From: Clostridia bacterium
Lineage (GTDB): Bacteria; Bacillota; Clostridia; Oscillospirales; Acutalibacteraceae
Assembly (NCBI GenBank): GCA_017481575.1
Contig: JAFUPA010000061.1
Span: 1 to 63,127, forward strand
Reading direction: 5' to 3'
Length of the DNA: 63,127 nt
Position numbers and translations under genes: made by a program. Within the stretch, counting starts at the first letter, position 1, and every line of letters starts with the position of its first letter. The notes under the pieces are model-generated. The model saw nothing but the letters and a program-made list of their open reading frames with translations. It was not told where the DNA came from and ran no database searches. Shown one piece after another: positions 2,600 to 50,680 of the stretch.

Positions 2600-2628
2600 T
2601 TTACGTTTGTCGAAATGTAAGATATAAT
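2600..2628 (+). promoter_or_regulatory. Promoter of first T-box operon
   Basis: TATAAT at 2623-2628, with a weak -35 (TTTACG, 2600-2605) 17 bases upstream. It precedes the T-box leader. Confidence 0.5.
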
Positions 2629-2639
2629 TCACTTGATAT

Positions 2640-2908
2640 TGTTAAAAGCGACGAAGATATTAAGTCTTTTCCGGATTTTTTCAGAGAGCCGACGGTCGGT
2701 GCAAGTCGGTATTTGAAGGCTTTGACTGTCTCGTATCTGAGCTTGATTCCCTAACCGTATTTTTACTGCATAAGGAGTCACGGCAAGCACCGTTATCATA
2801 GCTTAGGGTTTGAAAGAATCCGAAGAGTGGCTGTTTTCAGCAATATGGGTGGTACCACGGTAATTTTGTTTATCGTCCCTGAAGCACAATGTGTTTCAGG
2901 GATTTTTT
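2640..2908 (+). promoter_or_regulatory. T-box leader, specifier probably CUC (Leu)
   Basis: Classical T-box architecture. Stem I has the conserved AGAGAG and GGTCGGTGCAAG distal elements (about 2683-2706). The T-box sequence GGGTGGTACCACGG is at about 2847-2860, followed by an intrinsic terminator (2877-2908). In the phenylalanyl-tRNA synthetase leader of this window the UUC specifier lies six bases before a GAGC motif. The same offset here gives CTC at 2730-2732, followed by a purine, so the leader should sense uncharged leucyl-tRNA. The specifier is an inference; the T-box class itself is clear. Confidence 0.85.
2877..2908 (+). terminator. T-box terminator of LeuA-like operon
   Basis: CCCTGAAGCAC (2877-2887) pairs with GTGTTTCAGGG (2891-2901), then six Ts. 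It is the regulated terminator that competes with the antiterminator containing the T-box sequence. Confidence 0.8.
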
Positions 2909-2949
2909 ATTTAAAAATCAATTATTATTTATTTTTAAGGAGAATATTT

Positions 2950-4365
2950 ATGAGAAAGATTCGTGTGTCAGACATTACCTTAAGAGAATGTGCAAATTCA
3001 GTTGACCATTCTTTGAGCTTTAAGGAAAAAATCGAGATGGCAAAGCTAATGGATAAGCTCCACTACGACAGCATTGAGATGCCTGAAATCAAAAATGTTT
3101 CTACCGATGTTCTCTTGATAAAGACAATCGCTTCACTTGTTAAGAATACAGAGGTATGCGTTCCTGCCGGAATGAGTGCTGAAAGTGTTGAAACAGCTTG
3201 GAACAGCGTTAAGGGTGCGGCAAAATCGGCTCTTAAGGTAAGCGTTCCTGTTTCTGCAGTTCAGATGGAGTTCAAGTGCGGCAAGAAGCCTCCGGTTGTT
3301 AAAGAAATGGCGGCTTCACTTGTTGCAGAGTGCAAAAAGTATACCGACAATGTTGAATTCTCCGCAGAGGATGCAATGAGAGGCGAAAAGGACTTCTTAT
3401 ACAGCGTAATCGCCTCCGCTGTTGAGGCAGGCGCAAGCCGTGTTACTGTTTGCGACTCCGAGGGAACAATGATGCCGTCAGAGATTTCCGCTTTCATCGG
3501 CGACCTTTACGAGAACGTACCCGCTCTCAAGGACGTAACACTTTCAGTTGAAATCAGCGACGAAATGAATATGGCAATTGCAAGTGCATTTGCGGCAGTT
3601 AATGCAGGCGCAGGTGAAATCAAGACAGTTGCCGAAGGCTTTGCTTTCCCCACCGTTGACAGCGTTATGAAGGTGTTTAAGTTAAGAGGGGACTCAAACT
3701 CAGTTTCAAGCAAGATAAGAACTACCGAGCTTTCACGTGTTGTGAACCAGATGAAGAGAATGGTAAGCACAACAAAGAGTGAAACTTCACCGTTTGAAAA
3801 CGGTGTCAACGACTCCGACGAGTCACTCACACTTGACAAAAACGACGACATTTCAACAGTTATCAAGGCTATCAAGAAGATAGGCTACGACCTCTCCGAA
3901 GAGGATAACTCAAAGGTTTACGACGCCTTCAAGCGTGTAGCTAAAAAGAAGGATTTTGTCGGCACAAAGGAGCTCGAAGCAATCATCGCTTCAACAGCAC
4001 TCCAGGTACCGTCAACATATACAATTGAAAGCTATGTTATCAACAGCGGTAACGTAATTACTGCAACTGCAAACATCAAGCTCGTCAAGGACGGCGAGGC
4101 TGTAAGCGGTGTAAGCGTTGGTGACGGCCCGATTGATGCGGCATTCCTTGCAATTGAACAGATTGTCGGTCATCACTACGAGCTTGACGATTTCCAGATT
4201 AAATCTGTTACAGAGGGTCGTGAAGCAATGGGCTCTGCTCTTGTAAAGCTCCGTTCAGCAAGCGGCAAGCTTTATTCGGGTACAGGCATCTCAACCGACG
4301 TTATCGGTGCAAGTATCCGAGCTTATGTCAGCGCACTCAATAAGATTGCTTATGAGGAGGAATAA
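2950..4365 (+). CDS. LeuA-like protein with degenerate active site
   Basis: 471 residues from ATG 2950 (AAGGAGA at about 2939); an upstream in-frame start inside the leader terminator is rejected. Residues about 1-270 form a DRE-TIM barrel related to 2-isopropylmalate/homocitrate synthases. Residues about 340-471 match the LeuA allosteric domain very well (GDGPIDAAF near 388, VTEGREAMG, SGTGISTDVIGAS), which binds leucine in true LeuA. The catalytic barrel is altered: the usual TLRDGEQ reads TLRECAN, and the paired metal-binding histidines (HxHND) are replaced by an EISDE-like stretch. Ordinary isopropylmalate synthase activity is therefore doubtful. It is first in a probable leucine T-box operon, with the next start 2 bases after its stop. 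A leucine-sensing subunit, or a changed condensation enzyme acting on an acyl-CoA, are both possible. Confidence 0.75.
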   Translation: MRKIRVSDITLRECANSVDHSLSFKEKIEMAKLMDKLHYDSIEMPEIKNVSTDVLLIKTIASLVKNTEVCVPAGMSAESVETAWNSVKGAAKSALKVSVPVSAVQMEFKCGKKPPVVKEMAASLVAECKKYTDNVEFSAEDAMRGEKDFLYSVIASAVEAGASRVTVCDSEGTMMPSEISAFIGDLYENVPALKDVTLSVEISDEMNMAIASAFAAVNAGAGEIKTVAEGFAFPTVDSVMKVFKLRGDSNSVSSKIRTTELSRVVNQMKRMVSTTKSETSPFENGVNDSDESLTLDKNDDISTVIKAIKKIGYDLSEEDNSKVYDAFKRVAKKKDFVGTKELEAIIASTALQVPSTYTIESYVINSGNVITATANIKLVKDGEAVSGVSVGDGPIDAAFLAIEQIVGHHYELDDFQIKSVTEGREAMGSALVKLRSASGKLYSGTGISTDVIGASIRAYVSALNKIAYEEE

Positions 4366-4367
4366 AG

Positions 4368-6875
4368 GTGAATTTAGCTTTTTCAACAAAGTTCCACAAG
4401 GCGAACGGACTTGGCGATTTTATAAAGATTGCCGATGAGCTTCGCTATGACGGAATTGAAATCCACGATATAAAAGCAGACGCTTTTTCGGGCAAGTCTT
4501 CACCCTTTAACCCCGATATGGCATCTGTAACAAAGCGTACTCTTGTAAACGCAAAGAAGTCAATCGTATGCATCAACGTCGGCTGTAACGTTGCAGACAA
4601 GGCTTCCGAAGAAGAAAATATGCAAAAAATCGAAACAGCAGTTTCGGTTGCAAACAATATAAATGTTCCTTACATCAAGGTTTATGCCGAGAGCGGTGAC
4701 GAGGATGCTTTCGACTATGTAACCGGGTTTATGACAAAGGTAATCGCCTTGTGCGAGAAGAAGAATGTTGTTGTACTTGTTGAAACCTGCGGCATTTTTG
4801 CCGATACCAACAAGCTCTGCGACCTCCTCAACTTCTTTGCAAGCGACTTTATCGGCGCAGACTGGAATATGTACGAAACATACTTCCACACAAAAGAGGA
4901 TGCCGAAAAAACTATCACAAACCTCGGTGCATATGTAAAGCTCGTTCATATGACAGACGCAAAGGCTTACGGCGAGCATACACTCATCGGTGAGGGTGTT
5001 CTTCCCGTTGAGGATATGGTCAACGCTCTTCGCTCAATCAACTACGCAGGCTTTGTATCTGTTGAGTGGGATCCCGAGTGGGTCAGCGAAATCGACGACC
5101 TTGAAATAGTCCTCACTCACTACGAAAGCTTCGTTGAAGCAATGGGCAGCACAAAGAGTGATAAAAAGTATTTCTATAATAAAACACGTACAGGTAAGTT
5201 CGTCTGGGAAAAAGAAGAGCTTGTTGACAAGACCTTCTCACAGGTGCTTGACACAATGGTTGAAAATTTCCCCGACCAGCTCGCATTCAAGTACACAACT
5301 CTTGATTACACAAGAACATACTCCGAGTTCCGTGACGATGTTGACACCTTTGCACGTTCACTCATCGCAATGGGCGTTAAGGCAGGTACACACGTTGCAG
5401 TTTGGGCAACTAACGTACCGCAGTGGTACATTGCATTCTGGGCGGCAACTAAAATCGGCGCAGTTCTCGTAACAGTTAACACAGCTTACAAAATCCACGA
5501 GGCAGAGTACCTTTTCCGTCAGTCAGACACTCATACCCTTATTATGGTTAAGGGCTACAGAGATTCTCACTATGACGAAATCGTAGCAGAGCTTTGCCCC
5601 GAGCTTAAAAATACAAAACCGGGCGAGCCTCTCCACGCAAAGCGTCTCCCGTTCTTGAGAAATGTCATCACAGTCGGCTTTGAGCAGGAGGGCTGTATGA
5701 CCTGGAACGAGGCAATCGACAAGGCTTCGCAGGTACCCGTTGAGGAAGTTTACCGTATGGCATCTCTTGTTAAAAAGGACGATGTCTGCAATATGCAGTA
5801 CACCTCGGGTACAACAGGCTTCCCCAAGGGCGTTATGCTCACACACTACAACGTTGTTAATAACGGTAAGTGTATCGGCGACAGAATGGATCTTTCCACA
5901 GCGGACAGAATGATGATTCAGGTTCCGATGTTCCATTGCTTCGGTATGGTTCTTGCAATGACAGCAACAATGACACACGGTGGTACAATCCTTCCCTTGC
6001 CGTATTTCTCACCGAAGCCGTCACTTGCTTGTATCAATAACGAGCGCATCACCGCTTTCCACGGTGTTCCTACAATGTTTATCGCAATGCTTCAGCATCC
6101 CGACTTTGAAAAGACCGACTTCTCTTATATGAGAACGGGAATCATGGCAGGCTCGCCCTGTCCGATTGCAAAGATGCGTGAAGTTGTTGAAAAAATGAAT
6201 ATGAAAGAAATCACAATCGTTTACGGACAGACAGAGGCTTCACCCGGCTGCACAATGTCAAGTACAGACGACCCGCTTGAGGTGCGTGTTGCAACCGTTG
6301 GTCGTGCCTTGCCGAAAATCGAGTGCAAAATCGTTGACCCCGAAACAGGTCTTGAGTGCCCGGATGAGGTGACAGGCGAATTCGTTGCAAGAGGCTACAA
6401 TATTATGAAGGGCTACTACAAGATGCCGAAGGCTACTGCGGCGGCAATCGACAAGGACGGCTGGCTTCATACAGGTGACCTTGCCTGCAGAACTCCCGAG
6501 GGCAACTTCCGTATCACAGGCAGACTCAAGGATATGATCATCCGTGGCGGTGAAAACATCTATCCCAAGGAGATTGAAGAGTTTATCTACACTCATCCCA
6601 AGGTCAAGGACGTTCAGGTTATCGGTGTTCCCGACGAGGGTCTCGGAGAGGAAATTATGGCTTGTATCATCCTGCAGGACGGCGAGTCTATGACCGAAGC
6701 AGAGATGAGACAGTATGTTCTCGACCATATGGCAAAGCATAAGGTACCTAAGTACATCGACTTCGTTTCCGAATTCCCGATGAATGCGGCAGGTAAAATT
6801 CTTAAATATAAAATGCGTGAAATGGCAATCGAAAAGTACGGCTTGCAGAAAGCAAATTCAGTCGTAACGGCATAA
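4368..6875 (+). CDS. TIM-barrel isomerase-like / acyl-CoA synthetase fusion
   Basis: 835 residues from a GTG start with GAGGAGG just upstream, inside the end of the previous gene. Residues about 1-260 resemble the sugar-phosphate isomerase/epimerase (xylose-isomerase-like TIM barrel) family, with the EIHDI, VLVETCG and VHMTDAK strands. Residues about 285-830 are an ANL-superfamily acyl-CoA synthetase: the ATP loop YTSGTTGFPKG (about 476-486), GQTEASP, the GRLKDMIIRGGENIYPKEIE hinge (about 717-736) and the catalytic-lysine segment NAAGKILK (about 807-814). The ligase should make acyl-AMP and then acyl-CoA. The leucine T-box points to isovalerate or a related branched acid, but the substrate is inferred. 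I do not know this fusion as a characterised enzyme; the barrel's role is unknown. Confidence 0.8.
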   Translation: MNLAFSTKFHKANGLGDFIKIADELRYDGIEIHDIKADAFSGKSSPFNPDMASVTKRTLVNAKKSIVCINVGCNVADKASEEENMQKIETAVSVANNINVPYIKVYAESGDEDAFDYVTGFMTKVIALCEKKNVVVLVETCGIFADTNKLCDLLNFFASDFIGADWNMYETYFHTKEDAEKTITNLGAYVKLVHMTDAKAYGEHTLIGEGVLPVEDMVNALRSINYAGFVSVEWDPEWVSEIDDLEIVLTHYESFVEAMGSTKSDKKYFYNKTRTGKFVWEKEELVDKTFSQVLDTMVENFPDQLAFKYTTLDYTRTYSEFRDDVDTFARSLIAMGVKAGTHVAVWATNVPQWYIAFWAATKIGAVLVTVNTAYKIHEAEYLFRQSDTHTLIMVKGYRDSHYDEIVAELCPELKNTKPGEPLHAKRLPFLRNVITVGFEQEGCMTWNEAIDKASQVPVEEVYRMASLVKKDDVCNMQYTSGTTGFPKGVMLTHYNVVNNGKCIGDRMDLSTADRMMIQVPMFHCFGMVLAMTATMTHGGTILPLPYFSPKPSLACINNERITAFHGVPTMFIAMLQHPDFEKTDFSYMRTGIMAGSPCPIAKMREVVEKMNMKEITIVYGQTEASPGCTMSSTDDPLEVRVATVGRALPKIECKIVDPETGLECPDEVTGEFVARGYNIMKGYYKMPKATAAAIDKDGWLHTGDLACRTPEGNFRITGRLKDMIIRGGENIYPKEIEEFIYTHPKVKDVQVIGVPDEGLGEEIMACIILQDGESMTEAEMRQYVLDHMAKHKVPKYIDFVSEFPMNAAGKILKYKMREMAIEKYGLQKANSVVTA

Positions 6876-6880
6876 TCAAA

Positions 6881-6917
6881 TACATTACAAAATGTAATAT
6901 GCACATTACAAAATGTA
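6881..6917. promoter_or_regulatory. Twin palindrome, candidate operator
   Basis: Two copies of ACATTACAAAATGT, at 6882-6895 and 6903-6916. Each is a dyad ACATT-N4-AATGT; the first extends one base further on both sides. Their centres are 21 bases apart, two helical turns, and the second ends 3 bases before the -35 of the second T-box operon. The first gene of that operon carries a helix-turn-helix domain, which makes it a candidate binder. Confidence 0.6.
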
Positions 6918-6919
6918 TC

Positions 6920-6948
6920 TTGCAAAAGAAATGCAAAAAGTTTATAAT
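6920..6948 (+). promoter_or_regulatory. Promoter of second T-box operon
   Basis: TTGCAA (6920-6925), a 17-base spacer and TATAAT (6943-6948), directly downstream of the twin palindrome. Confidence 0.6.
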
Positions 6949-6959
6949 GTACCGCAACA

Positions 6960-7243
6960 AGGAATTGTTGTTAAAGGCTGTGACGAAGACGGTTACGTTT
7001 CTGAAACTTTAAGAGAGTCGGCGGCTGGTGTGAGCCGATAGTTTTCGGGGCGAAAAGAACCTATCCCTTCTGAGCCGAAGAGATGAAAGCCGAGTGCAAA
7101 TAGTTTCTTCCGTTTTACTACGTTAGTGTTAAGGGGTTGACAGACCCTATGAGTGGCACAGAGCAATAGCCGAGTGCAATTTGAGTGGTACCGCGGATTT
7201 TATTTCCGTCTCAAAGTTTTAAAAGACTTTGAGACGGTTTTTT
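6960..7243 (+). promoter_or_regulatory. T-box leader, specifier probably AUC (Ile)
   Basis: The Stem I distal elements (AGAGAGTCGGCGGCTGGTG, about 7012-7030) and the T-box TGAGTGGTACCGCGG (7182-7196) are clear, followed by a terminator at 7206-7243. With the six-base offset to GAGC seen in the pheS leader, the specifier is ATC at 7063-7065, isoleucine. The base after it is C rather than the usual purine, so the specifier is less certain than the T-box class. Gene content (branched-chain aminotransferase, ketoisovalerate-type oxidoreductase) supports isoleucine. Confidence 0.85.
7206..7243 (+). terminator. T-box terminator of XRE-cupin-ligase operon
   Basis: A perfect 12-base-pair stem, CCGTCTCAAAGT (7206-7217) with ACTTTGAGACGG (7226-7237), followed by six Ts. 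Confidence 0.85.
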
Positions 7244-7277
7244 ATTTCCTCAAAGTCACAAAAAAGGAGGTAAATTT

Positions 7278-9545
7278 ATGGAAAACAACACAACCGGTAA
7301 ACTTTACGAGGTGGCACAGCGAATTAAGGAAATGCGTGACATTTGCGGCTACAGCGTAGAAGAAATGGCACAGAAAACAGAAGTAACAGTTGAGCAGTAC
7401 CTTGTTTATGAGGCAGGCGAAATTGACCTTCCGTTCTCATTTATTCACAAGTGTGCGCTTGCATTTGATATCGGTCTGACCGACCTTCTTGAGGGACACA
7501 GTGCAAAGCTTACATCTTACACTGTAACACGTAAGGGCAAGGGTCAGACAACAGCCAGCGAAAACGGCATCGAAATCAAAAACCTTGCACCTAAATTCAG
7601 AAAAAGACTTTCGGACCCCTATATGGTTCGTTATGAATATTCAGCAGAGCTTGAAAACAAGCCCATTCACACATCAACCCATGCAGGTCAGGAGTTTGAC
7701 CTTGTTATCAGCGGTAAGTTAAAGGTTAAAATCGGTAACCACGAGGAAGTTCTCGGTGAGGGCGACAGCATCTACTACAACAGCTCAACTCCTCACGGTA
7801 TGATTGCTATTGACGGCAGAGACTGCGTCTTCCTTGCCATGATTATGGCAAGTGACGAGCCTGTTGAAAAAATCGTTCATGACAGAGCAGTCAAGGGAAC
7901 AAAGGTTTCAGGCAGCCTTGTATGCGAGAAGTTTATCGATACAACTGAAGATGAAAACGGAAATCTCGTTTCCATCGATTTTAATAACGAAGATAAATTC
8001 AACTTTGCTTTTGATATTGTAGATAATATCGGCAGAAAATCACCTGACAAGCGTGCATTGGTTCACCTTGATAAGAATAAGACTGAAAGAATCTTTACAT
8101 ATAAAGATATCAAGGACCATTCAAGTCAGGCTGCAAACTATTTCAAGTCACTCGGTATCAAGAAGGGTGACACCGTAATGCTCGTTATGAAGCGTCATTA
8201 TCAGTTCTGGTTTGCAATCCTCGGTCTTCATAAGATTGGTGCAATTGCAATTCCTGCAACTAACCTTCTTGTTCAGCACGACTTTGAGTACAGATTCAAG
8301 GCTGCAAACGTTTCAACACTTATCTGTACGGCTGACGGTGACACAGCACATCAGGCAGAGCTCGCAGATGCAGTTACAGGCACACTTAAAAATAAAATCA
8401 TCGTTAACGGCACAAGAGAAGGCTGGCACAGCTTCGATGAAGAATACGGTCTTTTCAGCCGACGTTACCGAAGAGAAGACGATGCTCCGTGCGGCGATGA
8501 TCCGATGCTTATGCTTTTCACATCAGGTACTACGGGTTATCCGAAAATCGCAACACACAGCTATAAATATCCTCTCGGTCACTACATCACAGCTAAATAT
8601 TGGCATTGTGTAAGCAAGGACGGTCTCCACTTCACAATCTCCGAAACAGGCTGGGGTAAGGCACTCTGGGGCAAGCTCTACGGTCAGTGGCTTTGCGAAG
8701 GCTCAATCTTCACATATGACTTCGACCGTTTCGATGCGGCAGATATTCTTCCTTTGTTTGCAAAGTATCAGATTTCAACATTCTGCGCACCTCCCACAAT
8801 GTACAGAATGCTTATCAAGCAGGATATCAGTAAGTACGACTTAAGCTCAATCAAGCACGCAACGGTTGCCGGCGAGGCGCTCAATCCTGAGGTATTCAAG
8901 CAGTTCTACAATGCAACGGGACTTGAGCTTATGGAGGGCTTCGGTCAGACCGAAACAACTCTTTCAATTGCAAATCTTACAGGTATGAATCCGAAGCCGG
9001 GTTCAATGGGTAAACCGGTTCCTCTTTACGATATCCAGATTCTCCGTCCGGACGGAACTCCTGCCGAACTTGGTGAAACAGGCGAAATCTGCATCAAAAT
9101 GGCTGACAAGGTACCTTGCGGTTTGTTTATCGGATATTATCTCAATGAGGAAGCCACTAATGATGTTATGTACGACGGCTATTACCACACAGGCGACACC
9201 GCTTGGGCAGACGAAGACGGCCACTATTGGTATGTCGGACGTATTGATGACGTTATCAAGTCCTCGGGCTACCGTATCGGACCCTTTGAAATCGAAAATG
9301 TTATCATGGAGCTTCCTTATGTTCTTGAGTGCGGCGTTTCAGCGGCACCTGACGAGATAAGAGGACAGGTTGTTAAGGCAAGCATCGTTCTCACAGCAGG
9401 CACAGAGCCTACAGAAGAGCTCAAAAAGGAAATCCAGACCTACGTTAAGAATAATACAGCACCGTATAAGTACCCGAGAATAGTCGAGTTCAGAAAAGAG
9501 CTTCCCAAGACTATCAGCGGTAAGATAATCAGAAATCAGTTATAA
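7278..9545 (+). CDS. XRE / cupin / acyl-CoA synthetase fusion
   Basis: 755 residues with AAAGGAGG about 8 bases before ATG. Three parts are visible. Residues about 9-72 are an XRE-type helix-turn-helix. Residues about 115-205 are a cupin barrel (HAGQEFDLVISGKLKV, GEGDSIYYNSSTPHG), as in XRE-cupin regulators that sense small ligands. Residues about 235-755 are an acyl-CoA synthetase with LFTSGTTGYPK (about 413-423), GQTETT, the GRIDDVIKSSGYRIGPFEIE hinge (about 653-672) and the C-terminal catalytic lysine in KTISGKIIRN. It leads the probable isoleucine T-box operon with the oxidoreductase and aminotransferase. It should activate a short or branched carboxylate to its CoA thioester; the N-terminal half could regulate the enzyme or bind the twin palindrome upstream. 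Substrate and DNA binding are inferred. Confidence 0.85.
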   Translation: MENNTTGKLYEVAQRIKEMRDICGYSVEEMAQKTEVTVEQYLVYEAGEIDLPFSFIHKCALAFDIGLTDLLEGHSAKLTSYTVTRKGKGQTTASENGIEIKNLAPKFRKRLSDPYMVRYEYSAELENKPIHTSTHAGQEFDLVISGKLKVKIGNHEEVLGEGDSIYYNSSTPHGMIAIDGRDCVFLAMIMASDEPVEKIVHDRAVKGTKVSGSLVCEKFIDTTEDENGNLVSIDFNNEDKFNFAFDIVDNIGRKSPDKRALVHLDKNKTERIFTYKDIKDHSSQAANYFKSLGIKKGDTVMLVMKRHYQFWFAILGLHKIGAIAIPATNLLVQHDFEYRFKAANVSTLICTADGDTAHQAELADAVTGTLKNKIIVNGTREGWHSFDEEYGLFSRRYRREDDAPCGDDPMLMLFTSGTTGYPKIATHSYKYPLGHYITAKYWHCVSKDGLHFTISETGWGKALWGKLYGQWLCEGSIFTYDFDRFDAADILPLFAKYQISTFCAPPTMYRMLIKQDISKYDLSSIKHATVAGEALNPEVFKQFYNATGLELMEGFGQTETTLSIANLTGMNPKPGSMGKPVPLYDIQILRPDGTPAELGETGEICIKMADKVPCGLFIGYYLNEEATNDVMYDGYYHTGDTAWADEDGHYWYVGRIDDVIKSSGYRIGPFEIENVIMELPYVLECGVSAAPDEIRGQVVKASIVLTAGTEPTEELKKEIQTYVKNNTAPYKYPRIVEFRKELPKTISGKIIRNQL

Positions 9546-9559
9546 TGCGAGGTGATACA

Positions 9560-10222
9560 ATGGAATACAAAAGAGTAACTCTTTTTGCGGGTCATTACGG
9601 CAGCGGAAAGACGAATATTGCGGTGAATTACGCTTTTCGGTTAAAGCGTGACGGCAAGCCGGTGGTTATTGCCGACCTTGATATTGTCAACCCCTATTTC
9701 CGTACAAAGGACTCCGAGCGTGAACTCACCGAGGCAGGAATCAAGCTCATTTCCTCCGAGTTTGCAAGCTCAAACGTCGACTTGCCCGCACTTCCGCAGG
9801 AGATATATTCCGTTGTTCACACTCGTTCCGACTACGCTGTTCTTGATATCGGCGGCGATGACAGAGGTGCTTATGCCCTCGGTCGTTACGCCGACAGCAT
9901 AGTTAAAGAAAACAACTACGAGATGCTTATGGTAATCAATATGTACCGACCTCTTACAAGGGACGTTGAAAGCACTCTCGAGGTAATGAGCGAAATCGAG
10001 CTTGCATCGGGTATGCGTTTCACAGCCGTTGTCAACAACTCAAACATCGGTGAGGAAACCACAGCGCAGGATGTTCTTGATTCGCTCGAATATGCAAACT
10101 GTGTGGCATCTGCGGCGGGACTCGAGCTTAAGATGACAACAGTTAAAGAAGATTTGTATAATCAACTGTGCGAGAGTGTCGAAAATCTTATGCCTCTCAA
10201 ACTACAGGAAAAGATAAGTTAG
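9560..10222 (+). CDS. P-loop ATPase of MinD/CobQ-like type
   Basis: 220 residues. GAGGTG at 9549-9554 favours ATG 9560 over the overlapping ATG 9545. Walker A is GHYGSGKTN (about 11-19). The following AVNYAFRLKRDGKPVVIADLDIVNPYFRT pattern (Walker A', Asp-containing strand) is that of SIMIBI-class ATPases such as MinD, ParA and cobyrinate synthase-like proteins. A VLDIGGDD segment follows. There are no metal-cluster cysteine pairs of the Mrp type. It sits between the CoA ligase fusion and the ferredoxin subunit of the oxidoreductase. An assembly, chaperone or activation role for that complex is plausible but unproven. Confidence 0.7.
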   Translation: MEYKRVTLFAGHYGSGKTNIAVNYAFRLKRDGKPVVIADLDIVNPYFRTKDSERELTEAGIKLISSEFASSNVDLPALPQEIYSVVHTRSDYAVLDIGGDDRGAYALGRYADSIVKENNYEMLMVINMYRPLTRDVESTLEVMSEIELASGMRFTAVVNNSNIGEETTAQDVLDSLEYANCVASAAGLELKMTTVKEDLYNQLCESVENLMPLKLQEKIS

Positions 10223-10233
10223 GAGGAAAAATC

Positions 10234-10440
10234 ATGGCAAAAGTAACATTTAAAACAGACCTTTGCAAGGGATGCAGCCTTTGCGTAGGTGCTTGCCCTA
10301 AGGGTATCGTTAAATTGTCTGAAACAAAGCTTAATGCAAAGGGTCATCATCCCGCAGAGGTGACAGACCCCGAAAAATGTATCGGGTGTGCATTCTGCGC
10401 AACTATGTGTCCCGATTGTGTAATTACGGTTGAGAGGTGA
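10234..10440 (+). CDS. 2-oxoacid:ferredoxin oxidoreductase, ferredoxin subunit
   Basis: 68 residues; TTAGGAGGAAAA lies just before ATG 10234. Two CxxCxxCxxxCP motifs (Cys11/14/17/21 and Cys49/52/55/59) bind two [4Fe-4S] clusters. It passes electrons between the thiamine-diphosphate subunit and free ferredoxin. It is the delta subunit of the four-gene complex that follows directly. Its stop overlaps the region where the alpha subunit begins. Confidence 0.9.
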   Translation: MAKVTFKTDLCKGCSLCVGACPKGIVKLSETKLNAKGHHPAEVTDPEKCIGCAFCATMCPDCVITVER

Positions 10441-10445
10441 ATGAA

Positions 10446-11510
10446 ATGTCAGAAAAAGTACTTATGAAAGGTAACGAGGCTATAGCCGAGGCGGCAATCC
10501 GTGCCGGCTGTAACCACTATTTCGGTTACCCGATCACACCGCAGACAGAAGTTGCGGCTTATATGGCAAAGCGTATGCCGAAAATCGGCGGAACCTTCCT
10601 TCAGGCTGAAAGTGAAGTTTCTGCAATCAATATGGTAATCGGTGTTGCATCAACAGGTAAAAGAGTAATGACCTCTTCTTCCAGCCCGGGAGTTTCCCTT
10701 AAGGCAGAGGGTATCTCATATCTTGCAGGCTGTGACCTTCCTGCAGTCGTTGTCAACGTTCAGCGTGGCGGCCCGGGCCTTGGCGGCATTCAGCCCTCAC
10801 AGTCCGACTACTTCCAGTCAACAAAGGGCGGCGGACACGGTGACTACCGCAACATCGTTCTTGCACCTGCATCTGTTCAGGAAATGGCAAGCCTTACTTT
10901 CAAGGCTTTTGACCTTGCAGACAAGTACAGCATGGTTTCAATGATTCTTGCTGACGGTACAATGGGTCAGATGATGGAGCCTGTCAGCCTTGACGCAGGC
11001 GAAGTTAATACCTACGAGAAGCCGTGGGCACTCACAGGTACAAACTGCGAAAGAAAGCACAATATCGTAAACTCACTTTATCTTAAGCCCGAAGCACTCG
11101 AGCAGAAGAACTTTGAGAGATACGAAAGATACAAGAAAATCGAAGAAAACGAAGTAATGTATGAAGAGTACCTTATGGACGATGCGGAAATCTGCGTTGT
11201 TTCCTTCGGTATTACTTCACGTGTTGCTAAAAACGCAATCAACGAGGCACGTGCTAAGGGTGTTAAGGTCGGTATGATTCGTCCCATCACACTTTGGCCG
11301 TTCCCGAAAAAGCCTCTTGCAGCTGCTGCTGAAAAGTGCAAGGCATTCATTTCAGTTGAGATGAGCATGGGTCAGATGATTGAGGATATCGAGCTTGCAA
11401 TCCGTTGCAAAAAGCCCGTTCTTCTCTGCAACCGTGTCGGCGGTATGATTCCTACACCCGAAGAGGTACTTGCAAAAATTCAGGAAGCTAACGAGGGAGG
11501 TGCATTCTGA
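10446..11510 (+). CDS. vorB: Ketoisovalerate-type ferredoxin oxidoreductase, alpha subunit
   Basis: 354 residues from ATG 10446 (GAGAGG eight bases upstream); GTG 10437 is an alternative. Sequence runs such as [37 protein letters not shown] and [16 protein letters not shown] are typical of VorB/KorA alpha subunits, containing the pyrimidine-side and gamma domains. With the beta, gamma and ferredoxin subunits it interconverts a 2-oxoacid plus CoA with acyl-CoA, CO2 and reduced ferredoxin. Family labels point to 3-methyl-2-oxobutanoate or 2-oxoglutarate. The branched-chain aminotransferase and T-box in the same operon favour branched 2-oxoacids. T-box control suggests it runs in the carboxylating direction here. 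Confidence 0.88.
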
Positions 11511-12265
11511 TGTCAGTAGTATTTGAAAAACCGAAGTCACTCACAAACGCAGTGCTTCACTATTGCCCCGGCTGTACACACGGCATTATCCACCGCCTTG
11601 TAGCCGAGGTTATCGACGAGCTTGGTATTGAAGGCAAGACAATCGGCGTTGCACCGGTTGGCTGTGCAGTTATGGCTTATGACTATTTCACCTGTGACTT
11701 TGTTCAGGCGGCACACGGACGTGCTCCTGCGGTTGCAACAGGTGTCAAGAGAAGTGACCCGTCAAAAATCGTTTTCACATATCAGGGCGACGGCGACCTT
11801 GCCGCTATCGGTACTGCAGAAACAGTACACTCTGCCGCAAGAAGAGAGAACATCACCGTTATCTTTGTAAACAACGCAATCTACGGTATGACAGGTGGTC
11901 AGATGGCTCCCACAACTCTTCCGGGTCAGGTTACACAGACATCACCCTACGGTCGTGATGTTGAGACAGTCGGTTACCCCGTAAAGGTTTGTGAGCTTCT
12001 TTCAAATGTTGACGGTGCGGCTTACGTCGAGCGTGTTGCTGTTAACAGCGTTAAGAATATCAAAAACGCAAAGAAGGCTATCAAAAAGGCATTCCAGAAC
12101 CAGCTTGACGGCAAGGGCTTCTCACTTGTTGAGGTTGTTTCAACCTGCCCGACAAACTGGGGTATGACTCCCGAAAAGGCACTTCAGTGGGTTGAGGAAA
12201 AGATGATTCCTTACTATCCGCTCGGTGTTTATAAAGACATCTATGCAGAGGAGGAAGCAAAATGA
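11510..12265 (+). CDS. 2-oxoacid:ferredoxin oxidoreductase, beta subunit
   Basis: 251 residues; its ATG overlaps the alpha-subunit stop (TGATG). It carries the thiamine-diphosphate-binding motif GDGDLAAIG (about 92-100) with the downstream [11 protein letters not shown] segment (about 122-132), and the early CPGCTHG cysteine motif found in this subunit class. Together with the alpha subunit it forms the active site for the acyl-CoA/2-oxoacid interconversion. Overlapping starts throughout 10234-12804 show a tightly coupled complex. Confidence 0.9.
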
Positions 12266-12804
12266 GCAAGTCATGTAAATTACTCTTTGCAGGCTTCGGC
12301 GGACAGGGTATCCTCTTCGCAGGCAAGTTCCTTGCATACAAAGGTCTTATTGAAGACAAGCAGGTAAGCTGGCTTCCGTCCTACGGTCCCGAAATGCGTG
12401 GCGGTACGGCAAACTGCTCCGTTATCATCAGCGACGAGCCTATCGGTTCTCCGATTGTTGATAACCCCGATGTTCTTATCGCAATGAATCTTCCCTCACT
12501 TGAAAAGTACGAAAACGCTGTTGTAAGCGGTGGCAAGATTTTTGTTGACTCAACACTTATCAACAAAAAGGTTGAAAGAACAGATGTTGACGTTTACTAC
12601 ATCCCCGCAACACAGATGGCTTACGACAACAACATCAAGACTCTTGCTAATATGATTATCACAGGTAAGGTGCTCAAAGAGGTTGACGGCTTCTCGATGG
12701 ATAATATTGAAGCCGCACTCAAAAAGGTTGTTTCAGCCCGTAAGATTGAGCTTCTCGGTGTTAACGAAACAGCAATCAAGTCAGGCTACGATTACGCAGA
12801 ATAA
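12262..12804 (+). CDS. 2-oxoacid:ferredoxin oxidoreductase, gamma subunit
   Basis: 180 residues, overlapping the beta subunit by 4 bases (ATGA). [12 protein letters not shown] (about 10-21) and [15 protein letters not shown] (about 38-52) are hallmarks of the gamma domain of pyruvate/2-oxoacid ferredoxin oxidoreductases. This domain binds CoA in structurally known relatives. It completes a four-subunit enzyme, and the next gene starts 1 base after its stop. Confidence 0.9.
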
Positions 12805-12805
12805 G

Positions 12806-13594
12806 ATGAAAGTAAGTTGTATACAGCTCAATATGAAATTCTGCGATGCGGATTTCAATTATTCACACGCAGAAAAGCTTATACACGAAACCGTTAAAAA
12901 AGAAAAATCGGATGTAGTCGTGCTCCCGGAAACATGGAGCACAGGCTACTATCCGAAGGATAATCTTGTGTCTTTTTGCGAAGTCGATGGCGACAGATGC
13001 AAAAAGACATTTTCACTTCTTGCAAAGGAACTGGGTGTCAACATCGTCGCAGGAAGTGTCGCAACAATCAAAAACGGTAAAGTGTATAACACAGCTTATG
13101 TCTTTAATCGTAACGGCGAGTTGTTGGGGGAGTATGACAAAACCCACCTGTTCACGCCTATGGATGAGCATAAGTTTTTTGAGTTCGGAGAAAAAGTTAC
13201 AACCTTCGAGCTTGACTCTCATAAATGCGGTGTAGTAATCTGCTACGATATCCGTTTCCCCGAGCTGGCACGCACACTTGCGTTAGAGGGTATCGAAATG
13301 CTTTTTGTCGTTTCGCAATGGCCCGACAAAAGGACAGAACACCTTAAAACTCTCACATCGGCAAGAGCAATTGAAAATCAGATGTTTGTCGCTGTCTGCA
13401 ATTCCTGCGGTGAGGCTGACGGAGTGCAATTCGGCGGCAATTCGAGGGTGATTGACCCGTGGGGCACGGTACTTGCATCAGCAGGCGAAACAGAAGAAGT
13501 AATCACAGCGGACTGCGATTTCACCGTAATTGAGGGCATAAGAACATCAATAAATGTCTTTAATGACAGAAAAAAAGAAATATATAATATTTGA
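12806..13594 (+). CDS. Nitrilase-family amidohydrolase (omega-amidase-like)
   Basis: 262 residues from ATG 12806, one base after the gamma-subunit stop. The carbon-nitrogen hydrolase triad is visible: Glu42 (LPETW), Lys112 (YDKTHLF) and Cys146 (VICYDIRFPE). The pattern resembles omega-amidases (Nit2/YafV), which hydrolyse 2-oxoglutaramate-type products of glutamine transamination. That would suit the aminotransferase that follows, if glutamine is an amino donor. Hydrolysis of a branched-chain amide or nitrile to feed the CoA ligases is an alternative. Substrate not determined from sequence. Confidence 0.8.
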   Translation: MKVSCIQLNMKFCDADFNYSHAEKLIHETVKKEKSDVVVLPETWSTGYYPKDNLVSFCEVDGDRCKKTFSLLAKELGVNIVAGSVATIKNGKVYNTAYVFNRNGELLGEYDKTHLFTPMDEHKFFEFGEKVTTFELDSHKCGVVICYDIRFPELARTLALEGIEMLFVVSQWPDKRTEHLKTLTSARAIENQMFVAVCNSCGEADGVQFGGNSRVIDPWGTVLASAGETEEVITADCDFTVIEGIRTSINVFNDRKKEIYNI

Positions 13595-13608
13595 AAGGGG
13601 GGTTAGCA

Positions 13609-14685
13609 GTGAGCTACACATTTCCGGTAACCCATACTGCAACACCAAAAGAAAAACCAGACGAAACACAACTTGGCTTTGGCCGCTATTTTACGGACCA
13701 TATGTTTATTATGGACTATGACGAAGGTCAAGGGTGGCACGACGGCAGAATCGTACCTTATGAGCCGATTTCCATTGATCCGGCATCCTGCGTTCTGCAC
13801 TATGCACAGATGATGTTTGAGGGAATGAAGGCTTACCGTACACCCTCAGGAGATATTCAGCTTTTCAGACCCGATATGAACTTTGAGCGTATGAACAGAA
13901 CCAACGAGCGTATGTGTATTCCTGCAATGGAAGAGGACATCTTTATGTCCGCAATCACTCAGCTTGTTGATGTTGACCGTGATTGGGTCCCGTCAGTTCA
14001 GGGCACATCACTCTATATCCGCCCCTTTATTTTCGGTGATGAGGTTTCTTTCAGCGTTCTTCCTGCAAAGCGTTACAGATTTATGGTAATTCTTTCACCT
14101 GTCGGTTCATATTATGCCGCAAACGACGGCGGACTTTCAACAACAAGAATTTTTGTTGAGGACGAGTATATCCGTGCGGCTGTCGGAGGCACAGGCTTTG
14201 CAAAGTGCGGCGGCAACTATGCAGGCGGTATGCGTGCATCAAAGAAGGCTGCCGAGCATCAGTGTAAGGATGTTCTTTGGCTTGATGCCGCAGAGCACAG
14301 GTATGTTGAGGAAATCGGCACATCAAACGCTTTCTTTATGATTAACGACGAGGTTATCACAGCACCTCTTATGGGCACTATCCTCCCGGGTATCACAAGA
14401 AATTCCGTAATTCAGCTTCTCAAAAAGTGGGGCATCAAGGTCAGTGAAAGACGTCTTCTTATTGAGGATGTTGTCAAGGCTGCAAAGGACGGCTCACTCA
14501 AAGAGGTTTTCTCAAGCGGAACAGCCGCTGTTATTTCTCCTATCGGTTGCCTTTACTATAAAGGCGAAGACAATCAGGTTGCCGACGGTAAGGTCGGTCC
14601 CGTTGCCCAGAAGGTCTATGACACACTCTACGGTATCCAGACAGGTGCAGTTGAGGACGATATGGGCTGGACAGTTAAAATATGA
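13609..14685 (+). CDS. ilvE: Branched-chain amino acid aminotransferase
   Basis: 358 residues from GTG 13609, preceded by a strong AAAGGGGGG; the in-frame TTG at 13591 is rejected. It is a fold-type IV pyridoxal-phosphate enzyme of the longer, BCAT type. The cofactor lysine is Lys199 in FAKCGGNYAGG, with the EEIGTSNAFF phosphate-side segment and the conserved VFSSGTAAVISP near the C-terminus. It converts 4-methyl-2-oxopentanoate, 3-methyl-2-oxopentanoate and 3-methyl-2-oxobutanoate to Leu, Ile and Val with glutamate. As the last gene of the T-box operon it supplies the final step of the proposed branched-acid route. An intrinsic terminator follows. Confidence 0.9.
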   Translation: MSYTFPVTHTATPKEKPDETQLGFGRYFTDHMFIMDYDEGQGWHDGRIVPYEPISIDPASCVLHYAQMMFEGMKAYRTPSGDIQLFRPDMNFERMNRTNERMCIPAMEEDIFMSAITQLVDVDRDWVPSVQGTSLYIRPFIFGDEVSFSVLPAKRYRFMVILSPVGSYYAANDGGLSTTRIFVEDEYIRAAVGGTGFAKCGGNYAGGMRASKKAAEHQCKDVLWLDAAEHRYVEEIGTSNAFFMINDEVITAPLMGTILPGITRNSVIQLLKKWGIKVSERRLLIEDVVKAAKDGSLKEVFSSGTAAVISPIGCLYYKGEDNQVADGKVGPVAQKVYDTLYGIQTGAVEDDMGWTVKI

Positions 14686-14691
14686 TTTAAG

Positions 14692-14726
14692 AATACCGTA
14701 TGCCACAGCGCACACGGTATTTTTTT
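14692..14726 (+). terminator. Terminator of VOR-ilvE operon
   Basis: AATACCGT (14692-14699) pairs with ACGGTATT (14714-14721), followed by a T run. Confidence 0.75.
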
Positions 14727-28504: not shown

Positions 28505-28618
28505 GTTAACCCACCCCTTTTGTAACTGACGGAAATGTGGATAACCACAAGGGAGCAAAAGGATTTTAACAGCCGACCGTCTGGGCAGTCCTGTTCTTTG
28601 TATAGGACTGCCCTTTTT
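28505..28618 (+). ncRNA. ZTP (pfl) riboswitch upstream of purE
   Basis: The leader has the ZTP/ZMP aptamer elements in order: TAACTGACGGAAATG (about 28522-28536), the ATAACCACAAGGGAGCA hairpin flank (about 28541-28557) and the conserved 3' segment CCGACCGTCTGGGC (28573-28586). The last six bases double as the 5' arm of an intrinsic terminator. Binding of the AICAR phosphate ZMP/ZTP, which accumulates when 10-formyl-tetrahydrofolate is short, should keep that arm paired in the aptamer pseudoknot and let transcription proceed. The downstream operon includes glyA and fhs, the classical targets. Call is by consensus recall, not by a covariance search. Confidence 0.88.
28583..28618 (+). terminator. 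ZTP-riboswitch expression-platform terminator
   Basis: GGGCAGTCCT (28583-28592) pairs perfectly with AGGACTGCCC (28604-28613), followed by five Ts. It overlaps the aptamer's conserved 3' end. Confidence 0.9.
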
Positions 28619-50429: not shown

Positions 50430-50465
50430 AAAATAAAAAGCTCCGTCCCAAGATAAGGGACGAAG
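50430..50465 (-). terminator. pheST T-box terminator
   Basis: On the minus strand: CTTCGTCCC with GGGACGGAG (one G-U pair), loop TTATCTT, then a T-rich tail. Confidence 0.85.
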
Positions 50466-50672
50466 CCGAAAACTCCGCGGTACCACCCTTTATTTTTGCC
50501 TGAGCAAACACTCTTGCACCCTTTAACGGAGATGAACCGTCCCGACCTACTATCGTTTCAGCCGAGCTGCTCCAAAGTGAACTTCTGCAACCTTACGCAT
50601 AAGCAGTCTTTCAGCAGATGACCGCCCTCTCTGAATGTATCGGGATGCATACTCTCTTTTTCAACGCATTAA
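50430..50672 (-). promoter_or_regulatory. T-box leader of pheST, specifier UUC (Phe)
   Basis: Minus strand. AGAGAGGGCGGTCATCTGCTG is the Stem I distal region. The specifier TTC (complement of 50579-50581) sits in GCAGAAGTTCACTTTGGAGC, and AGGGTGGTACCGCGG (complement of about 50475-50488) is the T-box. The specifier matches the gene function, so this leader serves as the internal reference for reading the two leaders at 2640 and 6960. Confidence 0.93.
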
Positions 50673-50680
50673 CTTTTGAT

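Follow-up and report, generated by a model that had tools for sequence, protein, structure and literature searches.

It is long established that rumen and gut anaerobes use branched short-chain acids as growth factors, and Allison and co-workers reportedly found in the 1960s that rumen anaerobes carboxylate isovalerate and isobutyrate to leucine and valine. T-box leaders are RNA elements that turn genes on when their cognate tRNA is uncharged. Here we analyze a 63,127-nucleotide stretch of a Clostridia bacterium of the Acutalibacteraceae (assembly GCA_017481575.1, contig JAFUPA010000061.1, forward strand; hereafter the window) in which two adjacent T-box operons quite probably serve, as judged from sequence comparison, to make leucine and isoleucine by salvage of branched short-chain acids via reductive carboxylation.

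The chemistry itself is already known. Carboxylation of isovalerate to leucine in the rumen is cited in PMC7356843, and Methanobrevibacter uses 2-methylbutyrate and isovalerate for isoleucine and leucine according to PMC10658910. Our proposal shares with the rumen-anaerobe work the same chemistry and the same kind of gut habitat, and differs from it in naming a gene set, with a tRNA sensor for each of the three amino acids and an accessory protein derived from LeuA. A limited literature search, and hence a weak negative, found no assignment of a gene set for conversion of branched acids to leucine, isoleucine, and valine, no T-boxes controlling branched-acid synthetase fusions, 2-oxoisovalerate:ferredoxin oxidoreductase (VOR), or a dead LeuA, and no gene set combining three tRNA sensors with a dead LeuA. 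The preliminary description of this DNA, made from the letters alone, knew of no described cluster of this exact make-up.

Three described systems come closest at the level of single elements. The nearest named or solved relatives of one of the two synthetases of the locus (ACS2) are MbcS of Staphylococcus aureus and MacsMa of Methanosarcina acetivorans, both of which act on 2-methylbutyrate. MbcS uses 2-methylbutyrate and isobutyrate but isovalerate very poorly (PMC10026030), and MacsMa (structure 3etc) favours 2-methylbutyrate (PMC10455477). Unlike both, ACS2 has an N-terminal helix-turn-helix (HTH)-cupin part and a T-box leader, and it falls below the MbcS cut-off. The first protein of the locus (LeuAd) has the barrel fold and LeuA_dimer domain of LeuA but lacks the metal and catalytic residues, and its most conserved part is the regulatory domain. 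Lastly, the leaders share the sequence hallmarks of T-box riboswitches (RF00230) and exceed the gathering score of that family.

Results

Two T-box operons with leucine and isoleucine specifiers

The features of the locus, followed by a third T-box of the window, are as follows.

2642-2883 (+): leucine T-box leader, specifier CUC (Rfam RF00230, 94.7 bits, E 1.7e-19)
~2877-2909 (+): terminator hairpin of the leucine leader, with a T run (by eye)
2950-4365 (+): LeuAd, a divergent LeuA homologue with HMGL-like barrel and LeuA_dimer domain (Pfam, alignment)
4368-6875 (+): ACS1, xylose-isomerase-like TIM barrel fused to an AMP-forming-type acyl-CoA synthetase (Pfam/NCBIfam, motifs, synteny)
6971-7216 (+): isoleucine T-box leader, specifier AUC (Rfam RF00230, 100.4 bits, E 6e-21)
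~7207-7244 (+): terminator hairpin of the isoleucine leader, with a T run (by eye)
7278-9545 (+): ACS2, HTH-cupin-acyl-CoA synthetase fusion (NCBIfam, Pfam, solved relative 3etc)
9545-10222 (+): P-loop ATPase, CbiA/ParA-like (Pfam, 26.9 bits against a cut-off of 25.4)
10168-10440 (+): 2x[4Fe-4S] ferredoxin, delta-type subunit (Pfam Fer4 families)
10437-11510 (+): VorB-type alpha subunit of VOR (NF005507, 548.6 bits against 399)
11510-12265 (+): VOR beta subunit, thiamine-diphosphate domain (Pfam TPP_enzyme_C; TIGR02177, 118.7 bits, below 261.9)
12262-12804 (+): VOR gamma subunit (Pfam POR; TIGR02175, 71.2 bits, below 81.1)
~12806-13594 (+): nitrilase-family (C-N hydrolase) protein (Pfam, 195 bits)
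13591-14685 (+): branched-chain aminotransferase, IlvE type II (NF009897, 469.9 bits against a cut-off of 307)
50453-50673 (-): phenylalanine T-box, specifier UUC, upstream of pheS-pheT (Rfam match)

The preliminary description had reported two T-box leaders 4.3 kb apart with specifiers CUC and AUC, and both points held up. The two leaders lie on the + strand, carry the antiterminator core UGGUACC, and exceed the RF00230 gathering score of 93 bits, the leucine leader just barely. Covariance alignments place CUC at the specifier position of the first leader and AUC at that of the second, both of them branched-chain codons. The UUC T-box ahead of pheS-pheT, two genes that each score above their NCBIfam cut-offs, calibrates the specifier reading within the window. 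Pfam and NCBIfam matches likewise bear out the two synthetase fusions, the four-subunit VOR-type oxidoreductase, and the branched-chain aminotransferase of that description, which overlooked the LeuA-like first gene, the most unusual part of the locus. The second operon further contains the P-loop ATPase and nitrilase-family genes.

Specifiers are kept in relatives and extend to valine

By a positional rule (AG bulge, a pairing check of the lower stem, and the triplet 9 to 7 bases before a GAGC-like end), specifiers were read in front of 192 LeuAd and HTH-cupin matches, 146 of which were callable; the 46 uncalled ones comprised 33 LeuAd and 13 HTH-cupin matches, nine of them with fewer than 300 bases upstream on the stretch. 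The rule had been tightened, with codon identity unused, after misregisters in earlier automatic readings (e.g., at a repeated GAGC), and the repeats L127 and L131-L134 were left out. LeuAd leaders specified leucine in 70 of 71 called cases (CTC 48, CTG 22) and ACS2 leaders isoleucine or valine in 74 of 75, counts over mutually related rows rather than independent events. When the register was slid by 1-6 bases, leucine was read in only 0-11 of the 71 and isoleucine or valine in 0-15 of the 75. Read by eye and outside these counts, the sole LeuAd exception (L187, TCC) gives CTG in register, and L119 and L099 give ATC with longer spacing.

The ACS2 specifiers followed protein similarity. All 33 called leaders of ACS2 genes with an N-terminal part at least 52% identical to that of the window read isoleucine (ATC), and the more distant ones read valine (28), isoleucine (13), and one other. 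On a quickly built tree of 57 synthetase domains from ACS2, the valine label changed three times against a shuffled mean of 15.0, so that the valine genes fall into three groups, some of them united by weak branches. For this tree seven labels were set by eye (L098, L105, L108, L116, L118, L120, and L121), four rows were unlabelled, two of which (L099 and L119) were later read as ATC, and the truncated gene L124 and L127 (a repeat of L045) were omitted. Further synthetase genes under valine T-boxes are as expected if isobutyrate feeds valine in these relatives. A third cupin-ACS2 clade with isoleucine T-boxes (L056, L096, L102, L106, L107, L108, L109, L114, L115, and L122) has short branches across several families of the order and looks recently spread.

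Rfam placed an over-threshold T-box immediately upstream of LeuAd in 20 of the 22 loci scanned. Of 19 LeuAd loci that lack a T-box, defined as no match to a short antiterminator pattern, six (L146, L158, L173, L183, L188, and L208) have a Leu-rich short reading frame upstream; the same was seen in 0 of 45 LeuAd leaders with a T-box (Fisher p 0.0004) and in 5 of 173 other genes (Fisher p 0.0001). These frames were scored in loci with at least 300 bases upstream against mononucleotide shuffles, with a limiting fraction of ≤0.03 chosen after a first look; L184 (0.04, not counted) was dropped as a near-copy of L182. The pattern looks like ribosome-mediated attenuation by leucine, which would be the same signal read by other means. 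Two further leaders deserve mention. Within 200 bases upstream of position 10001, L201 shows by eye the antiterminator and terminator of a T-box with no recognisable stem I, and the similar locus L195 has a fuller leader. A CUC T-box also stands at a contig edge (L093:87, -) in a congener counted as LeuAd-negative, the LeuAd gene of which is probably just off the contig.

LeuAd has lost the LeuA active site and travels with ACS1

The first gene under the leucine T-box encodes a protein with HMGL-like and LeuA_dimer domains, the latter at 103.6 bits (PF08502, cut-off 24.9), that does not reach the LeuA equivalog TIGR00973 (266.8 bits against 598.7). We aligned 102 LeuAd proteins of 456-475 residues (repeats L131-L134 left out) with the canonical LeuA of relatives. 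The LeuA metal Asp is kept in none of the 102 and the two metal His residues in none and three; no protein has the E or the R of the GERxGN loop, and none has an HESGIH-like segment. E, E, and S occupy the three metal positions in the window protein. In LeuA structures the metal Asp, the His residues, and the GERxGN loop belong to the active site.

Mean pairwise identity among LeuAd proteins is 69% in the regulatory domain and 45% in the barrel, whereas six canonical LeuA proteins show the reverse, 47% and 64% (four of ten rows were dropped owing to lengths out of line, three of them lacking the expected motif). Among seven congeners the ratio of nonsynonymous to synonymous divergence (dN/dS) comes to 0.09 in the barrel and 0.02 in the regulatory domain, rough values given a mean dS above 1, which is near saturation; such low ratios indicate a maintained protein. 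In an AlphaFold model the barrel matches LeuA structures. Taken as a protein family, LeuAd is probably a catalytically dead, leucine-sensing pseudoenzyme.

LeuAd-like proteins (E <1e-90) were encoded in 29 of 118 genomes, including that of the window, and the isomerase-like/ACS1 fusion was the next recognised gene in 28 of these 29 loci; in the exception, L061, a contig edge ends the stretch. In a scan of one genome for each of 84,980 species at least 597 stretches matched and at least 583 encode a LeuAd relative. Among the best 80, which were kept, the fusion was the next recognised gene in all 80, although three of these stretches end before the synthetase domain. The gap between the two genes was within 0.2 kb except in L151 (226 bases), L160 (374 bases), and L207 (712 bases). 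Four of the best 80 repeat contigs of the first set, and in the two sets combined the fusion follows LeuAd in 104 of 105 distinct loci. The genes of L046, broken by assembly frame shifts, were read only to the first stop. The best 80 include Lachnospiraceae, Oscillospiraceae, Eggerthellaceae, Coriobacteriaceae, and Synergistes bins, many of rumen or gut origin.

The best NCBIfam match of ACS1 is PRK12583, under its cut-off, which puts it on another branch than ACS2. Acyl-CoA synthetase motifs are conserved in 87 full-length relatives (17 of the 104 fusions were incomplete and, like the repeats L131-L134, left out). The isomerase-like domain has a UlaE-like fold, and four residues that are presumably its metal ligands are kept in 65, 13, 72, and 58 of the 87, the residue kept in 13 being the putative metal Asp. 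We had considered the domain simply dead, a view tempered by the window copy, which has all four putative ligands. Evolutionary distances of the LeuAd barrel and the isomerase-like domain remain correlated once those of the synthetase domain are allowed for (partial 0.67, permutation p 0.002), which hints at a contact between the two but is only suggestive.

ACS2 and the genes of the second operon

The ACS2 synthetase domain matches MbcS best in NCBIfam (425.4 bits, under the equivalog cut-off of 850), and its best solved relative is MacsMa (622 bits); the HTH scores just below Pfam cut-offs. From this kinship we propose ACS2 as a 2-methylbutyryl-CoA synthetase; ACS1 is proposed as an isovaleryl-CoA synthetase. 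The poor use of isovalerate by MbcS would explain why a separate synthetase family stands under leucine control. The genome of the window, 72.9% complete, has one match to ACS2 at E 1e-120.

For the oxidoreductase, the alpha subunit passes its NCBIfam cut-off, the beta and gamma subunits match Pfam families below theirs, and a ferredoxin gene is present; this VOR would carboxylate branched acyl-CoAs in vivo. The aminotransferase passes two curated IlvE cut-offs (469.9 against 307 and 380.9 against 250.05 bits). The ferredoxin gene adjoins a P-loop ATPase gene in 44 of 45 matches, and its true start is probably downstream of 10168. A nitrilase-family gene between VOR and aminotransferase genes occurs in 8 of the 151 stretches compared, although many of these stop short of that position; the protein might be an omega-amidase for glutamine-driven transamination.

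Elsewhere in the window Rfam found a ZMP/ZTP riboswitch (28512-28593, +, 66.7 bits) and a Gut-1 RNA (146-222, -, 60.2 bits), the latter also seen in two LeuAd neighbourhoods (L044 and L045).

LeuAd genomes mostly lack leuC and ilvC

A LeuC match below 1e-100 was taken as true leuC, weaker matches being mostly 36-43% identical and mainly in aconitase-length frames. By this measure leuC was present in 4 of 29 LeuAd-positive and 65 of 89 LeuAd-negative genomes (Fisher 2.5e-8); for ilvC the counts were 4 of 29 and 55 of 89 (Fisher 9.4e-6), with the proviso that genomes of one clade are not independent in these counts. In genomes at least 90% complete the respective figures were 0/14 and 53/71 for leuC and 1/14 and 46/71 for ilvC; counted by genus they were 1/17 and 56/74 for leuC and 2/17 and 46/74 for ilvC.

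The 41 genomes behind best-80 loci that we surveyed were picked mainly for long stretches and include three with ilv genes nearby. In these, ilvC was found in 16 and leuC in 7, with ilvC without leuC in 9, leuC without ilvC in 0, and neither in 25. In L195 and L201, ilvB-ilvN-ilvC-ilvD-aminotransferase genes adjoin LeuAd-ACS1, and both genomes are without a leuC match. Genomes that have ilvC without leuC suggest that the LeuAd module yields leucine. Bittarella massiliensis GD6 (L187), an isolate carrying the module, gave no ilvC match and an aconitase-like leuC match only.

The co-occurrence with gene loss that the preliminary description suggested checking is seen across LeuAd genomes, from which leuC and ilvC are mostly absent, but the genome of the window itself keeps ilvBNCD and leuABCD. 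These genes, together with ilvA, lie on another contig (L032, contig C17), where a pattern search found an AUC T-box near L032:15858 (-), below the Rfam gathering score. Three congeners share the leuC type of this cluster at 95% identity, and so does a species from a different family at 93%, which suggests horizontal spread. Replacement of de novo synthesis in this genome was rejected as an explanation because the cluster is complete.

Discussion

The locus would work as follows. Uncharged tRNA-Leu would open the first operon and uncharged tRNA-Ile the second. With ATP and CoA, ACS1 would activate isovalerate and ACS2 2-methylbutyrate; VOR and its ferredoxin would reductively carboxylate the acyl-CoAs to 4-methyl-2-oxopentanoate and 3-methyl-2-oxopentanoate, and the aminotransferase would convert both 2-oxoacids to leucine and isoleucine. 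In relatives, paralogous ACS2 proteins under valine T-boxes would take isobutyrate to valine by the same steps. The comparative tests support this route from acid to acyl-CoA to 2-oxoacid to amino acid, which the preliminary description had put forward: the specifiers are kept in relatives, valine specifiers occur on paralogous synthetases, ACS2 is nearest to enzymes that prefer 2-methylbutyrate, and leuC and ilvC tend to be missing where the leucine module is present.

What the sequences show is the T-boxes, their specifiers, the order of the genes, the loss of LeuA catalytic residues, and the co-occurrence; we infer the substrates, the flux direction, and the leucine feedback through LeuAd. 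Branched-chain amino acids could instead be degraded to branched acids, VOR forming acyl-CoA and the synthetases working backwards. In gut Clostridia, VOR enzymes do also work oxidatively, as PMC13290082 states. Such catabolism would sit badly with the anti-correlation with leuC and ilvC, with synthetases of AMP-binding (AMP-forming) families, and with T-boxes, which activate upon uncharged tRNA and are here specific for leucine, isoleucine, and valine; we consider it distinctly improbable. The MbcS-like synthetase domain of ACS2 could also suggest that the branched acyl-CoAs go to branched-chain fatty acids rather than amino acids, since staphylococcal MbcS supplies fatty-acid synthesis (PMC10026030). 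That use is highly improbable given amino-acid-specific T-boxes, VOR and branched-chain aminotransferase genes in the same operon, and again the leuC and ilvC pattern.

A different question is what LeuAd does. It may still be an enzyme, one that catalyses a new reaction rather than metal-dependent Claisen condensation. ACS1 may likewise have a catalytic isomerase-like domain, and the first operon would then make or modify some leucine precursor other than isovalerate. The purifying selection on the barrel (dN/dS 0.09) fits this, as do the four putative ligands in the window ACS1 and the retention of two of them in 65 and 72 of the 87 relatives. However, the LeuA metal site is gone in the 102 aligned proteins, the putative metal Asp of the isomerase-like domain is found in only 13 of 87, and the most conserved part of LeuAd is its regulatory domain, not the barrel; we regard a new reaction as unlikely. 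Under the salvage reading, LeuAd, as a dead LeuA with an allosteric domain, would sense leucine and restrain ACS1 by touching its isomerase-like domain. This leucine feedback is the least certain step, and we would put it at about an even chance. In this form, as these lineages exchanged the isopropylmalate pathway for isovalerate carboxylation, a regulatory enzyme of the old pathway would have lost its chemistry and become the feedback subunit of ACS1, the first enzyme of the new one, a history that we hold to be as plausible as its negation. The corresponding picture of a barrel-to-barrel contact with a mostly degenerate isomerase-like domain, and of leucine control kept across at least two leader mechanisms, could go either way to the same degree.

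Several observations weigh against the salvage pathway or against its sensor. Given the complete ilv/leu cluster in the genome of the window, the branched-acid route is no obligatory substitute, and both routes can exist side by side. Moreover, LeuAd, ilvC, and leuC are all absent from 16 of 85 genomes at least 90% complete, and therefore auxotrophy or another route also occurs in the order. As to regulation, 13 of the 19 LeuAd loci without a T-box pattern show no clear Leu-rich leader peptide, and the LeuAd gene of L060, which follows VOR genes, lacks its own leader. Part of the LeuAd regulatory domain is modelled with low confidence, its matches to solved LeuA regulatory domains are at E 0.76 or worse, and neither sequence comparison nor the structure model resolved its leucine-contact residues. 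With all four putative ligands retained in the window copy, the isomerase-like domain may not be inert there. Finally, among solved structures ACS1 has no relative at 1e-100; eight are found at 1e-60, and these are acyl-CoA ligases of other kinds.

The locus and its relatives provide a testable gene set in which the amino acid is written into each leader. With it, genome sequence can serve to predict which gut bacteria grow on branched acids that other organisms produce. Should LeuAd prove to sense leucine, it would clearly exemplify how a biosynthetic enzyme can come to regulate the pathway that took its place.

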